From: Antedon mediterranea
Taxonomy: Eukaryota; Echinodermata; Crinoidea; Comatulida; Antedonidae
Assembly (NCBI RefSeq): GCF_964355755.1
Contig: NC_092672.1
Span: 25,786,501-25,850,500, forward strand
Direction: 5' to 3'
Length of the DNA stretch: 64,000 bases
The position numbers and the translations under genes were made by a program. Positions 1 to 47,573 of this stretch are shown piece after piece (within the stretch, counting starts at the first letter, position 1; each line of letters opens with the position of its first letter). Below the pieces are notes generated by a model that saw nothing but the letters and a program-made list of their open reading frames with translations, was not told where the DNA came from and ran no database searches.

Positions 1-404
1 TGCTATAAGTATAATTTGTATTCTATATTAGTAATGTCGTGGTTTGGGAATCCCTCAATATATTGATTTGGTTAATGTGTATCATTAGGGTTTTGTGTAG
101 GTGGGCGTAGCATTTATTCGAAGGAGACATTTATTCAAATTTTTAAAAGAGTCGGTAACTATGTATTAATTGTTATACTGTTTATAATCTGTTTGTTCGC
201 CTGTTAACAATACATTGATCGTAATAACGATATAGTACAGTTTTAATACACAGTTCTTTTTTCTGACATAAATTCATAGGATAAAAACACAATAAAGTAC
301 CGTACCGATACGGCAAACTTACTTCTATTGTGGTCCTAAACAAATAAACAAGAATAAACAAGAAAACCACACTTAATTAACATAATAAACATACATATAG
401 CAAA
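1..404. other. AT-rich DNA, probable LINE 3' flank
   Basis: No coding signal was seen. The stretch lies directly downstream, in minus-strand terms, of a LINE reverse-transcriptase tail and may be its 3' untranslated region. The 3' end of that LINE could not be placed. Confidence 0.35.
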
Positions 405-740
405 TTAAATTTCTCTCAATCTAAGAATTTCACGAAAGTAGCCTTTAAATCTCTGTTTAAATAATTGTATTGAAGAGGAGCTTTGAACAAAATAGGGGAG
501 TGAATTCCATAACTGAATTCTTGTTATTAAGAAGGTTGACCTGTTGTGAGTTCCTATGACTGGAATATGGATCGAAATGCTGTCTCTGGATTGTGATTGT
601 GTCGATGTCTCGTCAGGGTAATTGTATCCAGGTAAGTTCGAGCACTTTTATTCATTATTTTATACATAATAGTTTCCTCTCCTGTACTATTAGGTCAACT
701 GGTAACCAATTTAAGTGGTAATGTAATTGTTCAATTTAAA
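405..740 (-). pseudogene. LINE (CR1/L2-like) ORF2 C-terminal fragment
   Basis: Read on the minus strand, the segment encodes the post-RT tail typical of CR1/L2-type LINEs. First comes an LNWLPV-type motif, then an LYKIMNK-like stretch after a frame change. Next is a block rich in HN and R residues, then the terminal motif QLWNSLP followed by LFKQRFKGYF, and a TAA stop at 405-407. At least one frameshift separates the upstream and downstream parts, so this is a dead, 5'-truncated copy. It lies in what would be the first intron of the disrupted Ly6 paralogue. The clade assignment is by motif only. Confidence 0.7.
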
Positions 741-1156
741 CTTTTCATAAGCCTACACTTTTATATATTAGGTAACCAACTTGTGCCAAGACATTTCTAA
801 AATTGTTTATCCATCTTATAATTTCCTAGTTGGGTGTATGAAATTATAAAAAAAAGTTAATTTTAATTAACTTTTTTAACCAGTCTTAAGAGACTGGTTA
901 GAGATGCAACCATAAAATTATGTTTCTGTTTTTATAAAATTATTGGTATTTGTATAAATACCATTGTTATGATAATTTAGACACGCCTATTATACAATTA
1001 TACTTCTGCTATTCTAATGTTACTGTCAATTAGTTACCAGAGTCCAGTCTAACAAAATATCTTTATGATAACCTTTTTAGCCTAAAAAATGTGCAATGTC
1101 TTAAAAAAATACATCTGCAATTGGCGTTACCATACATATTATTGTCATTAAAACCA

Positions 1157-1190
<34 letters not shown>

Positions 1191-2690
1191 AGGACCCAAA
1201 AAATCACTTTGCATACATTGTAATGCTATTTTGTGTGATAATATTACGTTTTAAGGATATGAAATGAAATCATGAATGCTCCATGTCTTTGAATTTGTGT
1301 TAGTATGTCAATTAGTTAACATACAATTGCCATTGCCAACACAACAATGATTACACATTATTGTTGCTATAGCATTTAATTTGGTCTTGAATATTCCCTA
1401 ATAAATATTGCATAATTATGCCAATGCTATCATTGTGTTTTATATAATATTTTTCACCAATTCTGTCAATATTTCAAATAGTATAATTTTTCTTGTAATT
1501 GTCGAGTAGCTCGCTGTTGGATGCGTATGAAATAAATAAATAGATATTGTTGGTATAGTCTTGACTTTGCTATGGTGATTATGACCATCTGAAAAAGGGT
1601 ATTCTGACATTTAGTTACATAAGGTTTTGACTTTATAGGGCAAAATAATTTACTAAAGTTTATTATACTAATTTTTATTTTATTTATTAAATTAAAAAAT
1701 GATCATATTTGTCTATTCATTTTATTCTTTAATTAATTTTAACGTATATATTTTATATAGGCCTACTTGTTTACTTTCCTTTTGTCTCAATTATTGTGAA
1801 AAAATCAAAAGAAAATTCGGTTATTTTGAAGTTATATGTCTTCATTACAGTTGTTTGTTCTGCGTCTTGTTCTGTTCTTTTTAAAGTTTATGGGCCCCGG
1901 CTGCCTTTCACAAGCTTTGACTTTATTAAAATAAAATTTCCCCTCTTAGTTAGCAAAAGGATTGTTATTATCATGAATTTATAAGATAAATAATTTCTTA
2001 TTTAACAAAAAGGCGGAAAAATTGTTGACGCTTCTGCACATGTGTCTGAAATTAGCATACCTCATGATCAGATGATCATGATCAGATCAGATCACATTAT
2101 ATATATAATGATACTAAATAAATATTTTTCTTTAAATAAAAAAGGGCTATAGTTATAACAATCAACGACAACGAATTTTACTTTATATTATTATTTATTT
2201 TATATTCTTAACCGAAGCATGTTTATTCAGTCTGATATTATGTAGTATTTATATCTTGGAAACATTAATTTATAACACAATTTGTATGTATACTTGTATG
2301 TATGAGTAAAGTACCTGATCGTATAATAGAATTAAGTTCATTAAAAAATGTTATGAGATACGAGAAGAGTTAGTACCTCATATCATTTTCCACAAGAAAT
2401 AAATATAAATGTTAAGCCTTTATGATGAAAATTACTAATATTTTAATAATACAGTAGTAGATAAAAAAATGTGTTTCTCAAACATTTTCGTTTTGAACTT
2501 TGGTAGCATGTTTAGAAGCCATCCATTGATAGGATGGGGAATGAAGATGAACCTTTTTTTAAATCATTGAAGATTGGAAAATGATGTTAGGAAAATGGTT
2601 AGAAAAGTAATTATCTTCTTTGTAACGCAAAGGTATTTTATAAAAGTCGATCTGGTAAAATTTAAATGTTGTCTGATATTTACATTTTAG
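741..2690 (+). other. Presumed intron 1 of the disrupted Ly6 paralogue
   Basis: AT-rich DNA with scattered stops in all frames and no supported gene. It ends in a good acceptor (TACATTTTAG, AG at 2689-2690). The matching signal-peptide exon was searched for and not found, so it is upstream of the window or lost. Confidence 0.45.
1159..1187. repeat. (TA)n microsatellite
   Basis: An uninterrupted run of about 14 TA dinucleotides, visible directly. Confidence 0.95.
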
Positions 2691-2772
2691 CTGGTGCCAT
2701 CCAATGTTACCAATGTGTAGATTGTGATAAACCAAAAGATAGCATCACCTGCCCAGCATCAGCTGACACATG
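2691..2772 (+). pseudogene. Ly6/uPAR-like exon 2, 5' part, cut by a retroelement
   Basis: This is the first 82 bp of a 105-bp coding exon. It follows a polypyrimidine tract and AG. It encodes the start of a three-finger (Ly6/uPAR) domain with the pattern CYQCVDC, then C residues near PKDSITC and ASADTC. It is clearly paralogous to the intact exon at 62223-62327. The reading is cut at the 4-bp target site CATG (2769-2772) by the Gmr1-like element and resumes at 15767. The two pieces together give exactly 105 bp, the length of the intact paralogue's exon. The mature transcript would contain the whole element or skip the exon, so this allele is most likely non-functional. Confidence 0.85.
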
Positions 2773-3685
2773 TGTGATGGGTTTGTCACACGGAAGTGAG
2801 CCCTCTAGAGTAAAAGAGGTGAGATGAATAAAGATGGACGACAACTACAACGTGTTTTGTTAGGGTGTGTAGAAAGCGACGACCTCGAATTGGACGACCC
2901 CAACGACCCGGGCGACCTCGAATTGGACGACCTAGAATTGGACGACCCATAACACGAAACCGACGACCCTAGCCTAGCCTAGCCTAGGCCTAAGTGAAAT
3001 ATCGCCATTTCATACTGAATGTGTCGACACGAACAAACGAACAGATATGGAACATCATCATTAAAACTGCATTCGATCCGATTAGCACACGAAATACCAG
3101 GTCAAAACGGCCCCTTTTTCAGCGGCGGGTGAGAAGGTTTGACCGTATACAATGCATGTGTGAAATGTAAAGCTTTTCTTATGGCCCTCCCCCCATGCAC
3201 ATGTTCGCAACACGCTGCTTGGTAGGCCTATAGTGTTCGTTATAAGAAGACCAGATGTAATTATACGTCCATGGTTTAACCATGTAATGTATAATATTTA
3301 TTTCTTTTTAATTTATTTTTAATATGTCGAATGCAGTTTTAATGATGCACTCTTGGCGTTCCATATCTGTTCGTTTGTTCGTGTCGACACATTCAGTATG
3401 AAATGGCGATTTTCTGTATTTTTTCAATCAATTACTTGCTTGCGAGTATTATATAAGGTATGGTTTAAAGATCTTTGGCTATGTTCGGCTTCGGGATGTT
3501 ATACCACACTTAGGCTAGGCTATAGGGGTCGTCGGTTTCGTGTTATGGGTCGTCCAATTCTAGGTCGTCCAATTCGAGGTCGCCCGGGTCGTTGGGGTCG
3601 TCCAATTCGAGGTCGTCGCTTTCTACACACCCTGTTTTGTTATGTTCTTATTGTTGGTTTCAGCCTAACGAGCGAGCCCGTAACA
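2773..3685 (+). repeat. 5' LTR of the Gmr1-like element, split by a foldback insertion
   Basis: The LTR sequence occupies 2773-2862 and 3643-3685. Between them are the 770-bp foldback element and a second copy of its 10-bp target site. With those removed it is 133 bp, the same length as the 3' LTR. I count one mismatch against the 3' LTR (G versus A at LTR position 8). A possible primer-binding region with TGGGGGTCATCCG follows at 3690. The tRNA primer was not identified. Confidence 0.9.
2863..3632. mobile_element. Foldback DNA element with tandem-repeat arms
   Basis: The 770-bp insertion begins GGGTGTGTAG and ends CTACACACCC. It is flanked by a 10-bp duplication TGTTTTGTTA (2853-2862 and 3633-3642). 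The arms are long inverted repeats: roughly 2863-3076 pairs with 3327-3632. The outer part of each arm contains several copies of a short unit based on CGAATTGGACGACC. No transposase is encoded, so it must be mobilised in trans. A 9-10-bp duplication with long GG-starting inverted repeats is most like Mutator-type (MULE) elements, but the superfamily is not proven. A 128-codon ORF across the right arm is accidental. Confidence 0.85.
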
Positions 3686-4042
3686 AATTGGGGGTCATCC
3701 GTGAACAAAGTACGGAATTGTAGTTGTAGATCGAACTGATGGTAATTTTAGTTACTTATTCTAAGCTGGTTTTAGGTTTAGAGGCGTTTTATAACGAACG
3801 AGATTTGGCGGTCGTCGAGCCAGTAGTAGTACACTGTGTTGTTGTTTTAGGCTTGTGTAGGCTTGCCTGTGATACTAGAAGTCGGTTTGGCTTTGATTTT
3901 AGGGGTCTAGTTATTGAGACCACGGCGCACGGTAGGTTTAATACTGTGTGGGCGTGGCAGGTAATTTATTACTGGTGCCTTAATTATCGTCATATTGGTT
4001 ATTTTAACCTGTGTTTTTGTTTGTTTGTTTCAAATAGAAACT
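3686..4042 (+). other. Gmr1-like 5' leader
   Basis: Non-coding leader between the 5' LTR and gag. It is repeated with small differences at 45945-46299 in the second copy. Short ORFs here are not conserved in frame between the two copies and are not proposed as genes. Confidence 0.7.
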
Positions 4043-5687
4043 ATGTCAGAAAGTGATTTTGACGAGGAATTTTTGGATAGCATGTCCATTGAGGTGGTAG
4101 CTCAGCTATCAGAGAGGAGCGTTTGCGACTCCTAGGTACTAGGGTTGGAGCATCTATAAATGATTCCATGAATAAATATGACTTGATAAATGTGATTGGA
4201 AGTCATGTTGGTTTAATTACTCATGAATCCGTAAATACTGCGGGAAATGAGGTAGAGTTGGCTAGAATCGCATTGGAACGTGAAAAATTAATTTTTGAAA
4301 GAAGAAAAATAGAGATTCTAGAGATGCAAACTCAAAGAGAAATGGAAAAAGAAAACATGAATTTGAGTTAAGGAAATTAGAATTAGCTAACCAAATGGGT
4401 CACACCACACGGGTTTCTACACCTAATGATTCAGAGATTACTCAGAATATTAAATGGGTTCCCAAGTTTAATGAGGACGAGGTAGAGAAATATTTTTTAG
4501 CTTTTGAGAAAATTGCTAATAGATTAAAGTGGCCTGCTAGACACTGGACTGTGTTGTTACAAACTGCTCTTGTGGGTAAAGCCCAAGAGGTGTTTTCTGC
4601 ATTGGCTGATGATCAATGTGAAAGCTATGATGCGGTTAAAACTGCTGTTTTGTCAGCTTATGAGTTAGTTCCAGAGGCGTATCGTCAGAAATTTAGGAAC
4701 TTAGGTTAACCTGATGATCAAACGTTTACAGAATTTGCACGTAAGAAGCAGATTCTTTTTGATAGATGGTTTAGTTCGGAAGGAGTAAAGGGTGAATTTG
4801 GAAAGCTTCGTGAGCTTATGTTAGTTGAGGAGTTTAAATCTTGTTCCCCTACTGAAGTTCGTACACATCTGGAGGAGCAGAAAGTTGATAATTTAGTGAA
4901 AGCGGCTTCTGTTGCCGATAATTATGTGCTCACGCACAAGGTGGTGGATACCAAATCGGTTTCCAAATCTGTTGGTGATTCTAAGGTCCAAAGTCAGAAA
5001 ACTACAGTTAATAGTAGTAGTAAATTTGTCAGAACTTGTTTTTACTGCAAGAAAAAGGGTCAAATAAAGGCAGATTGCTGGCTGTTTCAAAGCAAATCTA
5101 AAGGGGATAATAAGAAACCCCAATCACTTCCAAACACGTTAGTAAATACAGTCCCGTTGAAAGTGACAGCGAGTCATGACGTTGATGAATGTGAGAAGTT
5201 GATCCAATCTTCAGGTCCGGGAAAAGTGCGAAAGCTATTTAAGCCTTTCCTCTCTACTGGTTCTGTAGCATTGATCAACGATGTGAATCTGAGTAAAGTT
5301 CGTGTCTTAAGAGACACAGGGGCGTCACAATCCCTGATAATAGAATCGGCATTGTCATTTTCAAACGAGTCTTCTGCTGGAGCAAGTGTGCTCATTCAAG
5401 GTGTTGAAGGGGGTTATAAGGAAGTCCCACTTCATGTAGTTCGGATTGAAACAGATATTGTTAGCGGAGATTTTGTTGTCGGTGTCGTTCCGAGTCTTCC
5501 AGTATGGGGTGTCACACTCCTTTTGGGGAATGATTTGGCCGGAGACAGAGTGACAGTAGAACCGGTTGTGTGCAAGAGTCCTGTTGAAGACGAAAGCACG
5601 GTGTGTTTAGAGAAAGAATTATCACATGTGTTTCCATCATGTGCGGTGACGCGATTTATGGCAAATAAAACCATAGATGAGGATTAG
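4043..5687 (+). pseudogene. Gmr1-like gag and protease, frameshifted
   Basis: Gag starts at an ATG at 4043 with an acidic MSESDFDEE-type N-terminus. A coiled-coil-prone region rich in E, R and K follows (about 4250-4370). Then comes a capsid-like helical region (4440-4930) of the type known to have given rise to the vertebrate SCAN domain. A CCHC zinc knuckle lies at 5035-5076; in this copy its histidine is replaced by Q, whereas the copy at 45825 retains H there. The aspartic protease motif DTGAS is at about 5315. Against the second copy, this one has a 2-base insertion near 4115, a base loss near 4360 and a lysine-to-stop change near 4707. It is therefore not translatable as one chain. Confidence 0.8.
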
Positions 5688-5801
5688 AGTATTGACTTAT
5701 GTGATAGTTTTTACGGAGACATTACGGATCGCGTTTCCCAAGAGGCTGTCTGCTCAGGTCCCGAGTCACACATTGCCCAGGCTGAACAACAGCACCCAAA
5801 A

Positions 5802-8488
5802 GTGTGTGATTTCGGACCAACAATTCTCAATCGGTCTAGGTTAGTGGAAGAGCAGAGTAAAGATCCTGATTTGGTGTCATTTGGTCAGCAAGCTCTTTCT
5901 GTAGAGGAAATGTCTATTGTTCCTGTTTGTTATTATATAAAGGATGGCATACTTATGCGTAAGTGGAAGCCACCAGATATTCCAAGTAGTGATGTTTGGA
6001 ATGAGATTCACCAGATAGTTATTCCTAGTGGATACCGTCAGGATATTATTGGTATTGCGCATGATGATCCTCTTTCAGGTCATTTAGGTGTCAATAAAAC
6101 GGTAGACAAAATTCTCAGGCATTTCTTTTGGCCAGGTCTTAGAAAAGATGTGTCTAACTATTGTAAATCCTGTCATGCGTGTCAGGTAGTGGGGAAGCCT
6201 AATCAAAAGGTTCCAGTAGCCCCACTTAAGCCTATTCCTGCATTCGGTGAACCATTTTCAAGAGTTATTGTTGATTGTGTGGGACCATTACCACGTACTA
6301 AAAATGGAAATGAGTATCTATTAACAATAATGTGTGCATCAAGTAGGTTTCCAGAAGCGATTCCTCTTAGGCGTATTACAGCTAAGAATGTTGTTAAAGC
6401 ATTGGTAAACTTCTTTACATGGGTAGGATTGCCTAAAGCTGTTCAGTCCGATCAAGGATCAAACTTCATGTCAAAGATATTTAAACAAGTCTTAGAGCAG
6501 TTAGGTGTTGCCCATATAAGTTCAAGTGCTTACCATCCACAGTCTCAAGGGGCACTTGAGAGATTTCATCAAACACTTAAGAATATGCTTAAAACCTATT
6601 GTTTTCAATGTGAAAAGGAATGGGATGAGGGAGTTCCCTTATTGTTATTCGCTGTTCGTGAAACAGTGCAAGAGTCCTTAGGGTTTAGCCCATTTGAGTT
6701 GGTGTATGGTCATTCGGTCCGAGGCCCTCTTAAAATAGTCAAAGAAAGGCTGTTAGGGAATGCAGAAGAGTCTGTATCGATACTAGATTATGTGTCTGAA
6801 TTTCGTGATCGATTAAATCGTGCTCGTGAGATGGCTAGAAAGAATCTTGTGAAGGCTCAGGGTAAAATGAAGAGATTGTTTGATAGGAAATCAGAAAAGA
6901 GAAGCTTTAGTTCAGGTGATGAAGTGTTAGTTATGTTGCCTCTTCCCAGTCAGCCATTATCTGCAAGATTAGCTGGTCCTTACAAAGTACTAACAAGAGT
7001 AGGAGAAGTTGACTATGTGTTAGATACTCCAGATAGGCGTAAGAAGAAGCGACTGTGTCATATAAACATGTTGAAACCATACACAGCGAGAAATAATAGT
7101 GATACCTGTACGTCAACACCAGTTACGTGTGTTGTTGAAGAGAATTCTGAAGAGTTTGGGGATCCTGATACATGTGTTAAGTTCAGTAATTCAGATGTTC
7201 TTGCAAACATTGAAGAGAAAGTTGGTCATTTATCTCGTGATCGTAAGGTTGAAATTGTTAGTTTGATATTTGGAAATCTGCAGTTGTTTTCGGATGTTCC
7301 AGGTCGAACGAACTTAGTGGAGCATGACGTTAAGACAGCTGATTGTTCACCAATAAAACAAAATCCATATAGAGCAAATCCGTTCAAAATGAAGATATTA
7401 CAAAATGAGATTGATTACATGATTAAGAATGATATAATCGAGCCTAGTTGCAGTGCTTGGAGTTCTCCATGTATATTAGTTCCGAAGCCAGATAAATCGT
7501 ATCGTTTTTGTACTGATTATCGGAAGGTTAATGCCAAATCTACTACAGATTCATATCTCATACCGAGGATAGATGACTGTATTGATCGTGTGGGTAGTGC
7601 TAAGTTTGTCAGTAAATTTGATCTTCTAAAGGGTTACTGGCAAATTCCTTTAACCGAGCGTGCGAAAGAAGTGTCAGCTTTTGTAACTCCTATGGGTCTT
7701 TATCAGTATAAGGTCATGCCTTTCGGTTTAAAAAATGCACCAGCCACGTTCCAGAGATTGGTTAAGGGTATAATTTCAGGGTTGGAGGGCTGTGAAGCTT
7801 ATATAGACGATTTGGTTGTGCAGAGAATTAAGGCATTGTTTGATAGGTTGACAGCTGCAAATTTGACAGTAAATTTGGTGAAAAGCGAGTTTTCGTGTGC
7901 AGAAATTGTGTTCTTAGGTCATAAAGTTGGTTGCGGAAAAGTGAAACCATTAAGTGCTAAGATTAAGGCAGTCTGTGATTTCCCAGTTCCAAAGAGTAAG
8001 CAGGAGTTAATGCGGTTCCTGGGAATGGCTGGGTTTTATCGACGTTTTTGCAGAAGTTTCTCAACGCTTGTAGCTCCATTAACGAATCTGCTGAAAAAGA
8101 ATGCGAGCTTTGTGTGGTTGGAGGAATGCAATAATGCGTTCATTAAAGTTAAAGCGATGTTATCAAACGAACCGGTGTTGATGGCTCCACAATTTGATAA
8201 ACAGTTCTCGTTAATGATTGATGCCAGTGATGTTGGTTCTGGTACTGTGTTGGCGCAAAGAGACGAGAATGGTGTTGACAAGCCGGTGTGTTTCTACTCG
8301 AGAAAATTCAACCAGCATGAGAAACGTTATTCTACTGTTGAGAAGGAGACATTAGCTTTGATGTCAGCGTTAAAGCACTTTGAAGTGTATCTTGGATCTA
8401 CTCCGTTTCCAATTGTAGTTTGGACTGACCACAACCCATTAACGTTCTTGGCAAGAATGAAAGACAAGAATCAACGCTTGTTGAGATG
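5802..8488 (+). CDS. Gmr1-like pol: integrase, reverse transcriptase, RNase H (3' end displaced)
   Basis: A long open frame with integrase first. The HHCC zinc domain is at about 6055-6190 (GHLGVNKT, then CKSCHAC). The DDE core has D in VDCVGP (6268), D in QSDQGSNF (6445) and E in GALERFH (6555). A GPY/F-type module lies near 6975. Reverse transcriptase follows, with FCTDYRKVN (7505) and the catalytic YIDD (7800). About ten residues expected just after YIDD seem missing, which would damage RT. RNase H starts near 8215 (MIDASD) and is cut at 8488 by the transposon. The last codons resume at 15279 and end at a TAG at 15364-15366. The frame past 8488 (to 8546) is transposon sequence read by chance. 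The frame may start upstream, since 5690-5801 also looks pol-like. Integrase before RT marks the Gmr1 group. Confidence 0.85.
8485..8488. repeat. Target-site duplication GATG (left)
   Basis: GATG at 8485-8488 is repeated at 15275-15278. Removing the transposon and one GATG restores the RNase H reading frame across the junction. Confidence 0.85.
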
Positions 8489-8501
8489 CACAGCTGTTTC
8501 A
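8489..8501 (+). repeat. Left terminal inverted repeat of the RAG1-like transposon
   Basis: CACAGCTGTTTCA here pairs with the reverse complement of 15262-15274 (CACAGCTGTTCCA), 12 of 13 matches. The first five bases CACAG equal the start of the V(D)J recombination-signal heptamer CACAGTG. Confidence 0.85.
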
Positions 8502-8525
8502 ACTAGTGTTAAGATATCAGAAAAA

Positions 8526-8597
8526 GTAAAGCGCCCTCAGTGTTAGCAGACGACGCTCTCCGATCCGCGCGAACTTATGAATTTTGTACACAAACCA
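8526..8597 (+). promoter_or_regulatory. Left subterminal motifs, possible transposase sites
   Basis: Two motifs recur inverted near the other end. The first is GTAAAGCGCCCTCA at 8526-8539, matching the complement of 15234-15245 (GTAGCGCCCCCA). The second is TTGTACACAAACCA at 8584-8597, matching TTGTATACAAACCA on the minus strand at 15179-15192. Binding function is inferred only from conservation at both ends. Confidence 0.5.
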
Positions 8598-9407
8598 TTA
8601 TTTCGCGAACGCCAAATTAAATTTTGCTACCGTTAGTTTTTATGTAGAAAACACATTTTATATAAAACCAAACGATTAAAAAAGTTTATGTTCAATTAAA
8701 AAATCAATATTTTATTGTTTCTTTAATATAAATTAATAAATAAACGACGATATTGTCCATTTTACTGAAATAATCTCCCACACATAAACCAGGAAGTCGA
8801 TAGAAACTGTGTAATGAAATAGTAAACAATCGTAAGTAGAAAATATCATTGTATTCCTAACTTATTTTTTGGATATAATTCATTTTTTTAGAAAAAGAAC
8901 GAACTAGAATATAGGCCATCATTATTATATAAATAAAATAATACAAGTTATGTTAATATAGCCTGGTTCAGTTTTTAGTAAAACTCGCATATTTTGCAAC
9001 CCTTTTATACATTGTTATTGTTATCGGCGAGAAAACTGTTTGGCGATAGGCTTAGAAAGTGCGTTGAAGCCGGCGATAAACTTGACAGTAATGTGGGCCT
9101 AGGATGAAGCTAGGCCCAAACATAGAAAATTCGTAGTAGTAAAACCTTTAATTATCCTAATCCTAAATTTAATCATTATAACTGTTATCAAATAATTAAT
9201 GGCATGTGTTTATAATAATAATTATTGCTTTTCTGGTGCATTTTTAGGCTAGCTGGTGTGACTGAGTGACAGTCATTACTGTAACTATACTACTATTATA
9301 GGCCTTTATAAAAATTACACATACAATTACAAATATATTTCACAGATAAGCTGCGGAGCTATTTTTATTTAAAATTTTTTATATTATATTTTATTTCATA
9401 TACAGTA
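8598..9407 (+). other. 5' non-coding region of the RAG1-like transposon
   Basis: No ORF of note. It presumably contains the promoter and 5' untranslated region of the transposase gene. No clear TATA box or initiator could be singled out in this AT-rich sequence. Confidence 0.5.
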
Positions 9408-12400
9408 ATGGAGTTTCACGAAAGGGCATTGAGTTCCCTTTGCTACTGTTGCGGAAAAAAATTTAAAATAAAAGATGTAAAGTACACTTATGAATATAAT
9501 TTGGATCCAAATCTTAAGTGGCTATGTGGAAGCTGTCACGTTAGCGCACTTGGTGGACACAACATAACACCATTTAATTTCAAAGACCATGGAGACAAAT
9601 GCTTAGCGTGCTACTTATTCAGTCAACAATCAAGACCTGGTCGAAGGCTGAAGAAATGCAAGTTTCCCGAAAACAGAAGCAATACTACTGGCAGTTTTAT
9701 TCCCACTCATGAGCACTTGCTACTAAATCCTCAATTTAAAATTTTTGAAAATTACGATAATCAAGTGTATGAATGTCAGATATGCAATAATTTGTTGTCA
9801 ATTGACAGCCAGCAGACGCCTTGTCAACATTTTTTTTGTACATTTTGCATAAACAAATTGTTTAAGGCAGTAGGACGAGAATCAATTGATTGTTTTAACT
9901 GCAGCCAAATTGTCAGTAACAAAGATCTCAAACCAGTTCCACTTATTGTAGAACAATCGCTTAAACGAGTCCTTTTGCAATGCAAACAATGTAAAATTCA
10001 ATTAGTTTGGTCAGAAACCCCCAATCATGTTTGCAAAACGTTTAAAGAACAGGCATTCACCAAAATTTTAAGTGCAGTTGAAGAAATTACATGTACTGCC
10101 CAAACAAATGAGGTTTGGCCAAAAGAATTGAAAAGCATGGCACACAACATAGTACGGAAAGACCTTATGAATAATAAGAAAGTGTCACTTATGACTCGAG
10201 GACGGGTGAGTTTTTTAACCCATTACAATTAATTTAAATTTATCATAATGTAGGCCTACACTCTTGATTCACTCATTATACATTATTATTTGATAAATCA
10301 TACAAATATTTTATTTGATCAAATTCAGCCAATCAACATTGTTAAACAATCAGAGTGCACAACAACTGTTAGTGTTACCAGTACTGAAGAGAAAATGGAC
10401 CCCCAAAGATGTTTGGCAATCATGAATGCCTGCCGCATAAATTGGAGCCAGCAACGAGCACTGCGGAGGTAATTTATTTTATTATTGCTTTTCGTGTCGG
10501 GTATGTGGACCTCCGTTGGGCCACACAGCCACTGTTTACTATTATTCAGTCAACAGTTTACTTTTTTTTTAATTGAATTTAGAATACTATAGAAAACTAT
10601 AAAAACTATAATTAATCAGTACTGTATATACATTTTTTTTTTAATATAGATTTTGCCCAGGAGTTTTGGCTTCTGAAAGGCAAATGCGCATTTGCCAAGA
10701 ACAGATTATCGGTGATCACATAGTAGATTCTATGGAATACATGTTTGTCAAACGAGATGGAGCCACATCTATAGGAGGTCTTGTTTTGGAGGAGGTTGCA
10801 GTAGTCCGACTAACCAAAATCAAAGAACTAATCTATGACTACCTAAACAAATATGATATGTATGTAACATTTTTTGTTGTTATTTTTAAACAAACCTATT
10901 TCATACATCAGTACTGTATTATTGGCACAAATTATATATACTATAATAGATCGCATGTGGTATAAATATAAGAATAAAATAATTACAAATCTAGTCAGGG
11001 AAGACTTAAATTATATTTAATTTTGTAACAAGCAATTTTAAATTTTGTAGGTCTGATGAATTGAACTTCTTCAAAGATGGAGACATATTTCTCAAGTTTG
11101 GAGGAGACAAGGGTGGTGATACCACTAAATTTGAAGTTCAAATTTGCAGTTTACCTAAACCCAATGCGCTGCACAATATTATTGTCATTTTGGCATTCCA
11201 AGCACCAGATTTTATAGTTAATGTCGAAAAAGGCTTGAAACTGGTTCTTGATGAAGTCATGGATTTAGATGGAAACCAGTGGACCTCACCAAAGACCAAA
11301 AAGTAATATTAAATACAGTAGTATAATATTGGAATGAGTAACACTGACTTAAGTATATAGCAGAGCTACATAATTATAATATGCAACTTAATTTGAAAAT
11401 GTTACATAATTTGTATATCTTTAATTATGATTAATGTAATTAATTAGAATTCATGGTAATTGAATGAAAATAACTTCTCATTTTACAGAACTCACAATAT
11501 CCGCCTATTCTTTTTTGGGGATTATGATTTTTTGTCAAAGGTATATGGACTTGTTGGCCCAAATGGTAAGTACAATTTCCAGTTTCAATACAATTTTTTT
11601 TTTATATTTTGGCTATTAGCTCTCATTGTTTGGCATTTGTTACACAAAACTGAAGTACTATATATATTATGTAGATTTAAAAATTGATTTTTTTAAAGGA
11701 AAGTACAGTTGCATCTATTGTTTTTGTAATCAAGATGACATTAGAACCAACAATGTTCCTCAAGCCTGTAGATGTCTCAAGACCTACAATCGTGACTACA
11801 AGTCTTTTGTAGACCATGGGAGTGACAAAAAAAAAAGCAAAACAATATCGCACAGCGTTGTTAGGCCATACCTGGTACACATCGAATTAAACAGGGTAGG
11901 TAAATAATCATAACAGCACAGGTCCCCAGTGTTTATGTTAGGTTAAATTCAAAATTAATTAAAATCTCAATTTAGAAAGTTTAATACACACTCCAAACAA
12001 TGAAATGTGTGTTTGTACTTCCATATTAAATAACAATGTTAGTATAAAATAACTGTCAAAACAAACAATTGTTACAGTAATTTATAAATATACCTCTTTA
12101 TTAAATATTTCCTCAACTATTTTTCCAGGTGTCAATACCAGCATTACACATTTCTCTTGGGTTGTTTAAGAAACTCTATGATATGCTGGAAAAAGACGTG
12201 CACAATCTTGATGTTATAATTTTTAACATGCGACAGGATGGTGACATCTTGACTGGTAACTTCAAATGTTGTTTTAACTTTACATTGACATTAAATAAAC
12301 TCAATTGGTGAAGTTGCTTTTAAAATATACATTGTCCCTTTCAGCATAGAATTCAGTAAATTTCGAAATTGTTTATCCTGTTTTTATGCATAATAAACAA

Positions 12401-13846
12401 ACCTTTGGCTGAAACTTATTTTTCTATGAATTATCCATATTATCATTAACATTTTTTAAATATACTCATTTTGATGCTCATTTTTGATGCAGATTGAAAT
12501 TTATTTGATTGACCAATATTGTTTAATCTCAGGTGATCATCTAGCAGACTTTGAGAAAAGCATATCAGAAGCTGCAGCGCATCGAAATGCTACAATGATT
12601 AAAATCCAGTCTTTAGAAGAGAATCTTGAGGATTTAAGAAACGAGCTCTCAGTGTCACTTGTGACAAAACAGCATAACAAGATTGCAGAGATTGCAGAGA
12701 CTGGCCACAGAATAAATCTGAAAGAACAAGAGGTCAAAGACTTGGTCAGTACTACAGTATACACCTTTAAAATTTAAAATTATGTCTAAAATATACAATA
12801 CTATAAAAATTAATGCTATATTTCTTTTATATTTTATATAGCGAAGCACTATGAACCAAGAGATAAAATTTGGAACTGGACCTCTATGTACAAAAATGGA
12901 CGAGGTGTTGAGGAAGAATAAAATTCCTCGACAGCAGTACCACGGAAAGAGTTTTGTGGGAAACCATGTATACAGAGCATGCAAAGTGAGTAACTAAAAT
13001 TTCTAAAATGTGAAGTTCGTTAATTTTTACACAGCAAAATAAGTAATAAAATTAAGAATTATTTGCGATTGACTCTCGCCATACTGTAAACGTTTTATTT
13101 TAAACTATATATTTTATTTTTAGTTCAACATCATAGAAAAGCTCATGGATGGTGTCTCAATGACTTTAAAGCAACAGATACATCACTGTCCTACAAACTG
13201 TAAGCAACTGCTAGAAACAAAATTGCACAAGATACAGGAATCATTTACACCTGTATTCAAAACCTTTACTAATGTCCATGAATGCATAAACCATACGAGG
13301 CGCATCACTGATTCAGAAATAGATCAATATGGTAAGCAAAAACTGATGACCAAATTATGTGAATTTTGTCTGGTTTTATTTATTCTTAATGTGTGATTAA
13401 TTTCTTCAAACATCTGTATAATTTAAATTCTCATTTATAAACTTTCTTGTTACATTAAAATTTAATTCATGATTTTTTGTCATTTCAAAAGACAATACAT
13501 CTTTCAAATAAAATATTAAATTTTTTTTCACAAAACAGAAACCTACATACAACTGTTCTCCAAAGAATACAGACGCATCGCTCCAAATGTGATTCAACCA
13601 AAATTGCACATGTTGGAGCACCACACAATACCGTTCATGAGAGAATGGAGAGTAGGAGTTGGACTCTTAGCTGAGCAAGGCGGCGAATTAATCCACTCAG
13701 AATTTAATCGCCGGAAAAGGGCGGTATATGGATTAAAGAGCAACCTTGACCAGCTTATGTCAATCATGAAGTCACATCTGACTTTTATTTCACCCGAGAT
13801 CCAGCATGAGGTGACTAGGCCCAAGTGCAGAAAAGTTGAGGAATAG
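9408..13846 (+). CDS. RAG1-like (N-RAG-TP) transposase, 11 exons, 890 residues
   Basis: Exons, all GT-AG and in phase: 9408-10205, 10329-10468, 10650-10859, 11051-11302, 11489-11565, 11699-11895, 12129-12255, 12533-12744, 12842-12985, 13124-13331, 13539-13846. The sum is 2673 bp. The N-terminus has paired cysteines (C12/C15, C40/C43, C65/C68) like the RAG1 N-terminal region. A C3HC4 RING follows (C123, C126, C139, H141, C144, C147, C162, C165). A second finger comes next (C192, C195, H207, C209), the same order as RAG1's zinc-dimerisation region. The C-terminal part has candidate catalytic residues D402 (FGGDKGG), D478 or D480 (FFGDYDF) and E838 (EQGGELIH). CxxC 497/500 just after the second D, and H812-x4-H817 about 20 residues before the E, match the zinc ligands of the RAG1 core. 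By inference it cuts and joins the CACAG ends in the nucleus, and the RING may be a ubiquitin ligase. Exon choice rests on splice consensus and motif continuity, with no transcript. The core homology needs a profile search. Confidence 0.85.
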
Positions 13847-13866
13847 TTTGCTATTTCTCACTCACT

Positions 13867-14413
13867 TAATTGTTACAGTATTGTACATATTATGAATGGT
13901 AGTGGTTTTTTTGTTATTGCCAGAACAATGATTTTGGAAATATTAACAAATGGTATATGAATTTTAATTTAATTTTTTGGAAGTTATTTTTATTTTAATT
14001 TGGTTTTAAGAAATTGATTGATAACGGAAATTGATGTTATTTACTGATTCAGATTTTGATTGCATATCAAAATAAGAATAAATAAATATACAATACAAAT
14101 ATGAAAGAAATATACATTTGTTGTAATTAATTGTTACAGTATTGTATATTATGTACAGTATACTGTATGAATGGTAGTGTTTTTTTTTTATTGCTAGAAC
14201 AATGGTTTTGGAAATACATTAACAAATGGTATATGAATTGTAATTGAATTTTTTGAATGTTATTTTATATTAATGTGGTTTTAATATATTAATTGATTGA
14301 TAACGGAAATTGATGTAATTTACTGATTCAGATTTTGATTGCATATCAAAATACTGTATTAATAATAAATATACAATACAAATATGAAAGAAATATACAT
14401 TTGTTATAATTAA
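13867..14413 (+). repeat. Tandem duplication of about 260-287 bp in the transposon's 3' region
   Basis: The segment 13867-14126 recurs at 14127-14413 with scattered substitutions and small indels. Both copies start at TTAATTGTTACAGTATTGTA and end near ATATACATTTGTT. It lies just after the transposase stop, so probably in the 3' untranslated region. Confidence 0.9.
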
Positions 14414-15178
14414 ATATCTAATGTCACAGTACTCTATAGCTTCTTTCTATTAATATATTACACCCCCGAGAACAATTATCTTTGACTAAGAAGGTTTAGG
14501 TAGGCTGCTAGGCCTTTAACCTGCTGATGATGTACAGTAGCCTATATTTTATATATAGTATAGGCATGTAGCCTGACCTACTGTAGTGTAACTCCCCTCC
14601 CAATATGATTTTTTAAATATCTTAGGCCTAGCTAGGTCCTAGGCTAGGCCTCATTATTCATTAGGACCAGGCTAGCCTACTAGAAACAGCTGTAAACTGT
14701 CACTCAGGCCCCAGAATAGACATGTTTACCTGTTAAAAATACACAGCCATTAGTCTTACACAGCTGGTTTTAACCACGCAAGGGGCCTGGGCCTAGCTAG
14801 CATAGGAAAAAATCCAGCCAGGCAATATGGATACGAACCTTGTTAAAACATTCAAGGATAACTAAAGTATCCAACTAAATCAAAGAATTCAACAGAAAAA
14901 ATTATTTTTAAACTGATATGGAAAAAAACATTTATACCTACTTTTTAAATGTATCACTTGAGAAAAAAACTGGCGTTGGGTATACAATGTTGGTTAACTT
15001 TCAGTTAGATTCCCTCTGAAAATCCACGTGATAAAACGACATCAACATCTTTTTCACCTTCATCCAGGGTTGTTCTAATGAATATTCATTATTTTTCTGG
15101 CTTTCGCGGTTTTTATTTGTTTTTATTGGCTATTAAAATACAGTCGTTTTATGCTTGATCGCTTCCGGGTACCTCGTG
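14414..15178. other. Right non-coding arm of the RAG1-like transposon
   Basis: No coding signal. The part 14490-14810 is dense in CCTAG/AGGCCT-type palindromes, a composition also seen near 44700 and 56400. No kelch-repeat (RAG2-like) frame exists on either strand. Confidence 0.6.
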
Positions 15179-15245
15179 TGGTTTGTATACAATATGTTTT
15201 CGGAATCGCTACTCCATAAAACGATATGAACGTTGGGGGCGCTAC
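15179..15245 (-). promoter_or_regulatory. Right subterminal motifs
   Basis: The minus-strand motifs TTGTATACAAACCA (15192-15179) and GTAGCGCCCCCA (15245-15234) lie 83 and 30 bp from the right end. They mirror motifs at 96 and 38 bp from the left end. Confidence 0.5.
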
Positions 15246-15261
15246 ACTTAATTTGTATTTC

Positions 15262-15274
15262 TGGAACAGCTGTG
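15262..15274 (-). repeat. Right terminal inverted repeat of the RAG1-like transposon
   Basis: Reverse complement CACAGCTGTTCCA, followed directly by the GATG duplication at 15275-15278. Confidence 0.85.
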
Positions 15275-15278
15275 GATG

Positions 15279-15366
15279 GAGTTTAGCAGTTCAAGAAATG
15301 AATCTGGAAATTCATCATATCAGAGGAAAAGACAATGTTGTAGCTGACGCTTTGTTAAGAGTTTAG
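15279..15366 (+). CDS. C-terminal end of Gmr1-like RNase H, displaced by the transposon
   Basis: In frame with 8488 once the transposon and one GATG are removed. It encodes the end of RNase H, with the conserved IRGKDNVVADAL motif and a TAG stop at 15364-15366. This junction is the main proof of the transposon's exact ends. Confidence 0.85.
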
Positions 15367-15629
15367 ATAAAACATGCATGAAATGATTTTAAAAGTTTTG
15401 TTGATTTTAAAAGTGTTTATTTAATTATAATATGTTAGTTGTGATAGAGTGATGCATTAATGGCATACACGGATTTAAAGTAATTAGAACTTGTGAAATT
15501 TTAAAGAAACAGTTGAAGTAAATTCATATCAACGACCTGTTAAAATAACTACTGTATAAGAAAAGACTTAAGATGTTATAGTAAACAGTTATAAGTTTAA
15601 TCATATCAAACTTTCTTTAAGTGGGGGTG
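15367..15629. other. Gmr1-like 3' untranslated region with polypurine tract
   Basis: AT-rich and non-coding. It ends in a G-rich run (15621-15628, GTGGGGGTG-like) immediately before the 3' LTR, as expected for a plus-strand primer site. Confidence 0.65.
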
Positions 15630-15762
15630 TGTGATGAGTTTGTCACACGGAAGTGAGCCCTCTAGAGTAAAAGAGGTGAGATGAATAAAGATGGACGACA
15701 ACTACAACGTGTTTTGTTATGTTCTTATTGTTGGTTTCAGCCTAACGAGCGAGCCCGTAACA
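15630..15762 (+). repeat. 3' LTR of the Gmr1-like element
   Basis: 133 bp, TGTGATG to CGTAACA, uninterrupted. It is followed by CATG (15763-15766), the copy of the target site at 2769-2772. It serves as the reference for reconstructing the split 5' LTR. Confidence 0.92.
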
Positions 15763-31389: not shown

Positions 31390-34300
31390 CTAAATAGACC
31401 TATGAGGCTTATGCCTCTTAATTGGATTTCTTTTTGGTGTAGATACTGGTCCAGGTTTATGCAATTTTGATCTTGAATGATATCTGTTATCATATTTTGA
31501 CATATTTAAAATCATTGCTGCGCGTCTAATTGTTCCTGTAAACTGTATATCGCTCAGTAACATATATCTGCAAGTTTGTCCAGATACTGGGTTCACTTTG
31601 TACGTGTATGCTCTGTGATCTACTAGTGGCCTATCGTCTAGCATCGTACAATCACTAAATGTTGAATTCAATTTAACTTCAAATTCCATTAAATCTTTTT
31701 TAAAATCGGGACCGTACTCTGCAACTTTTTGCCAAAATGTTTTGTTGAAAAAATCGTAGAGTATTACGTCTGCGGAATTCCAGTCACGTGATTTTTGTTT
31801 CAGATTATCCGAGAGACCGAAACGCAAGTTTGTAACTCTCACTCCTTTAATAATGTATAAAATATCATCCATGTTCCAACACAAAAGTTTGTTAAGCAAA
31901 AGTAGAGACTCGTTAAAATATTCCTGTAGAAGAACCAGGCTAAATTCCCGTGCTATGGTTTTAATGTGCAATTGAACTTGATCAACATTCGAATATTCAG
32001 AAGGATCGAGACCCAAATCGTACAATAAAGGATTTTTTAAATAGTTTCGCATCGGGAACTTCTGATATTTATCTAAGAAATATTGCGGTTTAGATATAAA
32101 TTGCTCAAATGGGTTTGCCCGTTGTGACAAATTCAAATGTCGAAAAATTTGGAAGTATCCGAAAATGGATTCCGCTTGCGTTGCCGGATCGCGTAAAATG
32201 GTGATGTACTTTGTGTCTGGTTTCATCACGGCATCCATCTCTTTCCGATTGTATCGAACGTGGTTCACCAGTATATCGTACTTCTTACGAACGGCAGGAC
32301 GTTTATATAAGCCTGCACTAATCACATGGCCTCGCCTTGGAAGGACAAAACTTAAATTACGAAGAAATCCAAATCTTTGAAATATAGATGTTATAGTTGA
32401 ACTTCCGGTTTTGTGCGTCTTTAGAAACACAATGCGCGTAGATGGTTTGCATTTGCTGTTATCTGACGTTTCTCGAATACCGTTTGATGCATTTGTTTGT
32501 TTAATACTATTTGTTGAAATGACTTGTTTGTCAATGCGATCTACAACGTTTGGTTTCATCATTGTAGGCATACCTCTCTTCGAGTTTTTGCTAATCGATG
32601 TTACATTGATGAGTTTTGGAGGCGACGGAGTTACTTCTTGGTTTCCTGAAACATGTTTCGTAGCTTTACCTGTACTTCCATTTGTCTTGCCTGTTACAAG
32701 AGGATCTTTTGAAGAATTTTGAAGATTAGCAAGCTTTCGTTCATTCTCACTAACAACAACACCATCTATTTTTACCTTCTCGATTTGAGAACCTATTTTA
32801 TCAGCTGTCAAAACCTTCGTGTCGTTTCCTTTTAAATGACTTGTAGAATTTTCACTTTGATTTCCTGATCGATAGTTTGTTTCTAAACTGTTAACTTGTT
32901 TTGAATCTGGATGAGATTCAGTTATCAATACAGCTGACGTCACAGTTTGATTATCGTTTCTTTTAACATCACTGTCATTGACAACATCATGTGTTTTAAA
33001 ATGATTGTCATGTGATGATGTTTTTGGAAAAGTTGTCGTATTCTTTCCTTTATTGTATTCAGCTAATAATCGGTTGTTATTTTGAAGAAGCGTAGGTCTA
33101 CTGCTATTGTGACTTTTACCAAATTCTTGCTCAATTCTAAATGAAGATAAAAAAAGATAAAAACACGAATCATTAGAAATGTTGGTCTATTGTCGTTTTA
33201 TGTATTGACAACAAGATTTTGACAATAATATGATTGTGTAGGTACAGGTAGGTAGTCACATCTGTCGACAACAGTCAAACACATTACAATGCATGTGCAT
33301 TTTGTATTCAACTTAAGTAACAAGACATTTAATTAATACATTTAATGGAATGTAGGAAGTAAATGGTAAATTAGCTTGCCATGATGGTTGTATTGTCACA
33401 CAAGCTGGTACATTATATTATGGTCATTATATAAAATGCGAAATAAATACGACTTTTTGCATAAAGTTTACATCAACGTTTTAATTATGAGGTTCTTCGC
33501 ATTAATAATCTTTGTTATCAATTTCTGTTTGCCACCGAACCACAATCAATTTTTCTCTTTTCGTAGACACATTTAGTTAGAGACAATGCAAGCGAATTGA
33601 TTGCTATCGAGAGTTTGGATGACCCAGGGCTTATGATTGGTCCTTGCATTGCGTCTCTAGTGTGAATGGTTCACAGTAGGTCGGTTTTATATATGTAAAC
33701 GCAGTCGGTTTTGGTTCGTTGGGCACAAAATCCGACTATGTGTGAACCCATTCGGCCTAATTATAAGATCTGATTTGTCATCTTTAAAATTGCCCAATTT
33801 ATACAGAGCCGTTGGGCTTGTATTCTGATATCTGCTAAAATACTCTTAAATTTATCATTTTCGATTTTTGTGACATTTATAAATCAACATAATTGCAAAG
33901 CTCTTAACAGTAACAAGGTCATTCACATGGATACGATGATTTTAATTGACAACAAAGTAGACAACTTTCAAGAAAAAAAGAAGAAAAGACTAAGATGCTC
34001 GTAGCGTGTGTTTCAAATGGTGTAACATAAGACATTTGTTTTTAAAGATAAATTAATCTCATTTTAAATAGTACAATACAATATGTATGTGTGTGTGAAA
34101 AGGAGTCAAACAAATAGCTTTCGCTAAGCGAGGTTTGACTCCTGTCACAAAAATAAATTAGTCATAATGCATAAATTTTGATCTATCAACAATAATTCAA
34201 TAAGAAAGAAACAGCAACTAATAAAAGAAATAAAGTAAACAAGGGCTAACATTAATATTTTTGTAAAAGTAAACATTTAACTTCATTTATGAATTTAAAT

Positions 34301-45725: not shown

Positions 45726-45824
45726 ACTTTTTCTCATTCTCACAGATTTCCTCATCTCTATCGTTTCAAATTAATTAATTAAATTTCAGTATATCACCGG
45801 GCGGTTTAGAATTAATGTTCATTG

Positions 45825-47573
45825 TGTGATGGGTTTGTCACACGTAAGTGAGCCCTCTAGAGAAAAAGAGGGAGACGAATAAAGAGGGACGACAACTACA
45901 ACGTGTTTTGTTGGTTTCAGCCTATAACGAGCGAGCCCTTAACAAATTGGGTGGTCATCCGTGAACAAAGTACGGAATTGTAGTTGTAGATCGAACTGAT
46001 GGTAATTTTAGTTACTTATTCTAAGCTGGTTTTAGGTTTAGAGGCGTTTTATAGCGAAGGTGGTTTGGCGGCCGCCGAGCCAGAAAACTGTGTTGTTGTT
46101 TTAGGCTTGTGTAGGCTTGCCTGTGATACTAGAAGTCGGTTTGGCTTTGATTTTAGGGGTCTAGTTATTGAGACCACGGTAGGTTTAATACTGCGTGGGC
46201 TTGGCAGGTAATTTATTACTGGTGCCTTAATTATCGTCATATTGGTTATTATTTTAACCTGTGTTTTTGTTTGTTGTTTCAAATAGAAACTAGGCCTATG
46301 TCAGAAAGTTATTTTGACGAGGAATTTTTGGATAGCATGTCCATTGAGGTGGTAGCTCAGCTATCAGAGGAGCGTTTGCGACTCCTATGTACTAGGGTTG
46401 GAGCATCTATAAATGATTCCATGAATAAATATGATTTGATAAATGTGATTGGAAGTCATGTTGGTTTAATTACTCATTAATCCGTAAAAAACTGCAAGGA
46501 ATGATGTCGAGTTGGCTAGAATCGAGTTGGAACGTAAAAAATTAATGTTTGAAAGAAGAAAAATAGAGATTCTAGAGATGCAAACTCAAAGAGAAATGGA
46601 AAAAGAAAAACATGAATTTGAGTTAAGGAAATTAGAATTAGCTAACCAAAATGGGTCACACCACACGGGTTTCTACACCTAATAATTCAGAGATTACTCA
46701 GAATATTAAATGGGTTCCCAAGTTTAATGAGGACGAGGTAGAGACATATTTTTTAGCTTTTGAGAAAATTGCTAATAGATTAAAGTGGCCTGCTAGACAC
46801 TGGACTGTGTTGTTACAAACTGATCTTGTGGGTAAAGCCCAAGAGGTATTTTCTGCTTTGGCTGATGATCAATGTGAAAGCTATGATGCGGTTAAAACTG
46901 CTGTTTTGTCAGCTTAAGAGTTAGTTCTAGAGGCGTATCGTCAGAAATTTAGGAACTTGGGTAAACCTTATGATCAAATGGTTACAGAATTTGCACGTAA
47001 GAAGCAGATTCTTTTTGATAGATGGTGTAGTTCGGAAGGAGTAAAGGGAGAATTTGGAAAGCTCCGTGAGCTTATGTTAGTTGAGGAGTTTAAATCTTGT
47101 TCCCCTACTGAAGTTCGTACACATCTAGAGGAGCAGAAAGTGGATAATTTAATGAAAGCGGCCTCTGTTGCCGATAATTATGTGCTCACGCACAAGGTGG
47201 TGAGTACCAAATCGGTTTCCAAATCTGTTGATGATTCTAAGGTCCAAAGTCAGAAAACTACAGTTAATAGTAGTAGTAAATTTTGTAGGAACTTGTTTTT
47301 ATTGCAGGAAAAAGGGTCATATAAAGGAAGATTGTTGGCTGTTCCAAAACAAATCTAAAGGGGATAATAAGAAACCCCAATCACTCCAAACACGTTAGTT
47401 AATACTCTACAGTCTTTTTGAAAGTGACAGAGAGTCACGACGTTGATGAAAGTGAGAAGTTGATCCAATCTTCAGATTCGGAAAAAGTGCGAAAGCTATT
47501 TAAGCCTTTCCTCTCTACTGGTTCTGTAGCATTGATCAACGATGTGAATCTGAGTAAAGTTCGTGTCTTAAGA
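45825..47573 (+). mobile_element. Truncated second Gmr1-like copy (5' LTR, leader, gag)
   Basis: The LTR at 45825-45944 is 120 bp because an internal stretch (ATGTTCTTATTGTTG-like) is missing. Leader and gag follow, closely similar to 3686-5312. Gag has the intact EERLRL junction that is frameshifted in copy 1, but carries its own stops (46479, 46915) and a frameshift near the zinc knuckle (47290). The copy ends at 47573, just before the protease DTG, where Helitron sequence begins. There is no pol and no 3' LTR. Confidence 0.88.

Follow-up and report, generated by a model that had tools for sequence, protein, structure and literature searches.

The N-terminal third of RAG1 has been discussed both as a late addition and as an ancestral part of the protein. 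A mobile DNA element in Antedon mediterranea has a single gene with the module order of RAG1. It lies in a stretch of 64,000 nucleotides, here called the window, and all positions below are in window coordinates. The initial annotation described a RAG1-related transposon of a kind known from molluscs; the host is instead a crinoid echinoderm. We conclude that the element very probably belongs to the Chapaev group of cut-and-paste DNA transposons, is complete and has been active recently; within the group it would fall in the Chapa-RING subgroup.

Ends, empty site and genomic copies

The element is 6,786 bp long and is inserted in the RNase H frame of a long terminal repeat (LTR) retroelement. 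Both tips read CACAGCTGTT(T/C)CA in inverted orientation, from 8489 on the forward strand and from 15274 on the reverse strand, and these tips are the only exact matches to CACAGCTGTTNCA in the 64 kb, where 0.02 would be expected from shuffling. The insertion is flanked by a duplication of GATG, and the same two boundaries are the end positions in other genomic copies. The initial claim of a complete element with exact ends is thus confirmed, together with a 4-bp target-site duplication.

When the flanks are joined at a single GATG, the RNase H frame reads through without a break, ending ...NQRLLRWSLAVQEMNLEIHHIRGKDNVVADALLRV-stop, as had been noticed at the outset. The genome searched was a 354-Mb assembly of 18 contigs, and match counts refer throughout to scored candidates. 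A query of 200 bases, composed of both flanks and one GATG, gave 55 candidates, 40 of which were scored; all 40 retroelement matches cross the restored junction at 93-99% identity, 36 of them spanning bases 1-200, and the empty site is therefore real. Since the element lies inside a retroelement copy whose LTR pieces are 95-99% alike, its insertion is younger than that copy.

The whole-element query covers bases 1-6786 at at least three places (36 scored of 135 candidates). One full-length copy on another contig (L011) is 99.75% identical to the window copy, with 2 substitutions and two gaps, and is flanked by CTGG; a second on a third contig (L009) is 99.57% identical, with 17 substitutions and four gaps, and is flanked by TCCT. 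Because these two copies are nearly identical to it, the element has been recently mobile, as first proposed, and the window copy is intact and has moved recently. The gene is open in both, encoding 887 residues in L011 (one in-frame gap of 9 bases) and 890 residues, three of them changed, in L009, and all splice sites are kept. Both ends were present in 18 of 21 other copies examined (L012, L014 and L015, in which the right end was not found, were omitted), and exact 4-bp duplications flank 17 of the 18, the exception being L032, whose 3' end is damaged. For the left-end query there were 82 candidates, and of the 40 matches that were scored 39 begin at base 1 and the other at base 2.

Thirty-two of the left-end matches are at 89-91% identity, and the 14 that were retrieved (L020-L033) are all shorter than the window copy: 12 are of 3.3-3.8 kb, L028 is of 5.5 kb and L033 is of 1,040 bp. 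None of the 14 matches element bases 830-3080, a region that includes exon 1 and the D402 exon. They are non-autonomous derivatives, with both ends intact in 13 of the 14 (the right end of L032 is the damaged one) and internal gene pieces in 13, the remaining one being that of 1,040 bp.

The gene, its product and its family

The one gene seen lies on the forward strand, with only 919 bp of the element before the coding region and 1,428 bp after it. Its 11 exons join into 890 codons with one terminal stop. All 10 introns are GT..AG and are interrupted by stops in every reading frame, and G+C is 39% in the joined exons and 18-27% in the introns. The splice sites are backed by both other full-length copies, in which 10 of 10 introns are GT..AG, and the exon model is also backed by protein alignment with relatives. 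At the level of sequence, the predicted model of 11 exons and 890 open codons put forward initially is confirmed. Besides the frames of the exons, open frames of at least 90 amino acids in the element are limited to an antisense one and the end of the retroelement frame, so no RAG2-like gene was seen at that length, small exons not having been searched for; nor did exon 1 match phage records by tblastn. Beyond the transposase stop codon lies a tandem duplication of about 275 bp, its halves now diverged, which is also found in copies L009, L010 and L011.

The Pfam scan of the 890-residue product recovered DUF1280 (PF06918; E 5.1e-14, 52.9 bits, cut-off 25) and RING (PF00097; E 7e-6, 26.2 bits, cut-off 21). 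The top sequence match in the Protein Data Bank (PDB) is the RING of RAG1 (E 4e-4), with TRAF6 and BRCA1 close behind, and because these match nearly as well the RING alone is no proof of kinship with RAG1. When a model of exon 1 was compared with structures, the RAG1 RING dimerisation domain (1rmd) ranked ninth (E 1.2e-5), behind RINGs of LNX, TRAF and TRIM21. N-terminal to the RING, the three CxxC pairs of the Chapa-like region are kept, at residues 12/15, 40/43 and 65/68, and a profile built from nine relatives scores the window protein at 13.3 bits, where 500 shuffles reach at most 5.9. The central non-core domain of RAG1 binds two zinc ions, with C110/113, C175/178 and C210/213 as candidate ligands (PMC3124419); in our own reading the three window pairs would correspond to these. 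The core fold, in a model of relative P0002, matches RAG1 and HzTransib at about 12-16% identity in structural alignments.

Several observations weigh against the proposed reading. The PF12560 (RAG1 importin-binding) profile does not match the window protein even at E 10. It exceeds its cut-off, together with DUF1280, in five of the 15 relatives scanned; several of the 10 others have no N-terminus, and P0002, P0003 and P0013 have the region and still do not match. The spacing from the first to the second CxxC pair is 14-34 residues shorter than in the seven relatives where both of these pairs occur, and the distance from the GRP motif to the core is 24 residues, against 70 in P0002 and 29 in P0003, the Antedon L041 frame being long. 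Function could suffer from either shortening. The core model, moreover, is of P0002, which is 29% identical to the query across 92% of its length, and the Foldseek and VIA lists gave little information on P0002 residues 270-412.

These shortenings allow a reading in which the window copy is intact by sequence yet immobile, its protein having been inactivated by the reduced Chapa region or the missing pre-core segment, and is moved by transposases of other families; the non-autonomous derivatives do show that ends of this kind are open to mobilisation in trans. We regard this as unlikely, since all three near-identical, recently moved full-length copies have the shortened gene and the termini of the Antedon family L038 are different.

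A first family search recovered 12 proteins and a later one 55, mainly from echinoderms but with members in hemichordates, amphioxus, Hydra, Hydractinia, coral and sponge. For two Antedon mediterranea proteins, P0001 and P0050, exon stretches match genome loci at 100% over 57/78 and 68/56 residues, and other stretches of these loci at 66-97%, partly because the alignments extend into introns. With a sulfotransferase-like frame of the window described below, these matches identify the host as A. mediterranea or a very close relative. In a tree of 31 rows the window protein groups with P0050 (100/94) and P0001 (100/100), and this Antedon group adjoins a sea-star group on a joint branch of 100/99. 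The tree keeps three long-branch rows, two of which meet, and leaves out RAG1 and Transib rows, so that it gives no date for the split from RAG1.

Target-site duplications of Chapaev elements are 4 bp long. Duplications of that length, and not the 5 bp of RAGL and Transib elements, flank the window element and 17 of the 18 other copies, as well as a second Antedon family (AGTA and ATCT). PMC3985635 equates DUF1280 with the Chapaev transposases and places it in one clade with RAG1. Because of DUF1280 and the 4-bp duplications, the element is assigned to the Chapaev group. Two further features given for CMCT elements in PMC12730594, where duplications range over 2-5 bp, are present: C(2)C and H(3-4)H motifs lie between the second Asp and the last Glu (C497-C500 and H812-H816), and the CAC..GTG ends agree with CA..TG termini. 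The initial label RAG1-related thus stands for the fold, the domain order and the RAG1 N-terminus-like region, and is to be given up as regards membership of the Transib/RAGL lineage.

An element of that lineage, ProtoRAG-like but with RAG2 lost, would also account for the core fold, the CAC ends and the ranking of BbRAG1L first among PDB sequences by the family profile (whole-sequence E 0.0018, no single stretch being significant). It is nevertheless very improbable: RAGL and Transib duplications are almost always 5 bp, as stated in PMC7204232, the close kin are DUF1280 proteins, and a second gene was not seen within the length limit given above. That this is a domesticated host gene of Chapaev transposase origin and merely resembles an element, as the open gene and kept splice sites might suggest, is scarcely credible given near-identical full-length copies that lie on separate contigs between 4-bp duplications of their own, and a window copy within a repeated retroelement that has at least 40 other matches without the insertion.

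Among the relatives, P0011 of Amphiura, a diverged protein with DUF1280, matches the PHD finger weakly (E 0.0086, below cut-off) in the stretch after the DUF1280 part. The PHD finger is otherwise known from RAG2.

Asymmetry of the two ends

The two ends of the element share a second motif set at different distances from the tips. Compared beyond the first 13 bases, AAGTAAAGCGCCCTCAGTGTT at the left and AAGTGTAGCGCCCCCAACGTT at the right agree in 16 of 21 bases, a score that dinucleotide shuffling reached 23 times in 3000 in one test and 5 times in 2000 in another, and the right copy is 10 bp nearer its tip. The longest exact word common to both ends past base 13 is 7 bases, which by itself falls short of significance (272 of 2000 shuffles). 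The comparison was made for the two families with both ends confirmed. In the second of these, L038/L039, whose termini are unlike those of the window family, CGAGACAAAAAGTG occurs identically in L038 at 25 on the left and 16 on the right, a match that none of 2000 shuffles equalled, and the offset is 9 bp; L039 has a left copy with one base changed relative to L038. In this family ACAAAAAGT follows the first seven bases by 21 bp on the left and 12 bp on the right.

By the account in PMC8289069, the ends of ProtoRAG and the recombination signal sequences (RSSs) are bipartite and asymmetric, and most Transibs are symmetric. The left-right offset of the second motif, 10 bp in the window family and 9 bp in L038/L039, resembles the 12/23 spacing of RSSs. 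We suggest, tentatively and expecting that the idea may well fail, that the ends of these Chapaev elements are bipartite and asymmetric like immune recombination signals, a CAC outer motif being followed by a second motif that lies about one helical turn (9-10 bp) deeper on the left than on the right, and that a 12/23-like pairing rule could predate RAG and Transib or have arisen twice. If the asymmetry is functional, the origin of the 12/23 rule becomes testable outside the RAG lineage.

Other results speak against this suggestion. By shuffling, RSS-nonamer likeness has no significance in the window family (reached in 54% of shuffles on the left; on the right the best match lies elsewhere, 46%) or at the left end of L041 (12%), is weak in L038 (7% left, 1.7% right) and is absent in L034. 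Our claim concerns the shared second motif and its offset, not a nonamer. A nonamer-binding-like domain is also doubtful in the predicted window protein because so few residues separate the GRP motif from the core. The family L034/L035/L036-L037 has a left end CACG with AGCGCCCTC and a right border AGACAGAG without inverted repeat or duplication; its offset is 7, with a motif score reached in 123 of 2000 shuffles, which gives no support for asymmetry and counts against a 12/23-like reading. The left end of L040, the ends of L042 and the right end of L041 were not found; the left end of L041 is present in two copies, its outer border being putative.

The end motif GCGCCCTCA recurs after ATAAATA upstream of transposase genes (L042:1726 and L038:2947), where it is perhaps a promoter or a transposase-binding site.

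Surroundings, mechanism and known systems

The features of the element and its host are collected in Table 1. The retroelement frame (5688-8540) places an integrase (residues 112-464) ahead of reverse transcriptase (598-747) and RNase H (810-935), an arrangement opposite to that usual in Ty3/Gypsy elements. The gag-like frame at 4710-5684 has a SCAN match; this combination fits Gmr1-like elements. The 5' LTR is split at 2862-3633 by a nested element with inverted arms of 108 bases that are 100% complementary. A further, truncated copy of the retroelement (45823-47573, 94%) stops before the insertion target. The window also contains a sulfotransferase-like frame at 31395-33186, whose best match is from Antedon mediterranea (94%, 587 aligned residues).

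Table 1. Coordinates of the element, its predicted exons and the host retroelement in the window
Feature	Position	Strand	Remarks
Host LTR retroelement	2771..15762	+	LTR pieces 2771-2862/3623-3685 and 15628-15762; RNase H frame broken by insertion
Left target-site duplication GATG	8485..8488	.	Site empty in other copies of the retroelement
Whole Chapaev element, 6,786 bp	8489..15274	+	Ends, duplication, other copies
Left terminal inverted repeat, outer motif CACAGCTGTTTCA	8489..8501	+	
Left second end motif AAGTAAAGCGCCCTCAGTGTT	8524..8544	+	Position 36-56 of end
Exon 1	9408..10205	+	Chapa-like three CxxC pairs (residues 12-68); RING and following zinc finger (~120-210)
Exon 2	10329..10468	+	
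Exon 3	10650..10859	+	Start of DUF1280 match (residue 351)
Exon 4	11051..11302	+	First catalytic Asp D402, 11106-11108
Exon 5	11489..11565	+	Second catalytic Asp D478, 11520-11522
Exon 6	11699..11895	+	C497-x2-C500
Exon 7	12129..12255	+	
Exon 8	12533..12744	+	Long-helix insert of core, by model of relative P0002
Exon 9	12842..12985	+	Conserved RQxYHGKSFVGNH block
Exon 10	13124..13331	+	
Exon 11	13539..13846	+	H812-x3-H816; catalytic Glu E838 (13685-13687); stop codon
Diverged tandem duplication, ~275 bp, past stop codon	13866..14413	+	
Right second end motif AAGTGTAGCGCCCCCAACGTT	15229..15249	-	Position 26-46 of end; 10 bp nearer tip than left
Right terminal inverted repeat, outer motif CACAGCTGTTCCA	15262..15274	-	
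Right target-site duplication GATG	15275..15278	.	

A mechanism can be proposed that starts from what is observed, namely the ends, the duplications, the empty site, the open gene, the near-identical copies and the domain order. The single gene would give an 890-residue transposase with an N-terminal Chapa-like zinc region, a RING module and a DDE core of RAG1/Transib fold (D402, D478 and E838). The RING module, as in RAG1, would perhaps serve dimerisation or ubiquitin transfer. A transposase dimer would bind both CAC-ended termini and cleave at the CAC tips, probably via hairpins on the flanks in the manner of RAG1 and Transib, and insertion with a 4-bp stagger would produce the duplications. 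Expression of an active protein and the chemistry of transposition are inferred. With its exact ends, empty site, compact single gene and the module order of RAG1, this defined and recently mobile element is a concrete substrate for asking what role the Chapa and RING parts have in transposition.

Among known systems, RAG1, ProtoRAG and RAGL differ from the window element in having 5-bp rather than 4-bp duplications, and no RAG2-like gene was seen here among frames of at least 90 amino acids. Transib, represented by HzTransib, likewise has 5-bp duplications, and its canonical transposase is without Chapa or RING according to PMC4411706. N-RAG-TP of Aplysia, compared by description only, is alike in carrying a RAG1 N-terminal-like region within a transposon; it is described as entirely RAG1 N-terminal-like sequence in PMC8355894, whereas in the window element a RAG1-fold core follows that region.

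The closest likeness is to Chapaev elements with Chapa and RING, and it includes the 4-bp duplications. It extends to the DUF1280 transposase, a putative Chapa-like zinc region, the RING and the CAC ends. In PMC4411706, Chapaev transposases have a Chapa domain followed in two subgroups by a RING, as in RAG1, and this order is argued to precede Transib and RAG (Kapitonov and Koonin 2015). The window element differs from those described in its shortened Chapa region, its crinoid host and a gene that is open in three near-identical full-length copies. The combination of Chapa, RING and transposase has thus already been described for Chapaev, and the Antedon element adds to it an intact, recently mobile member.

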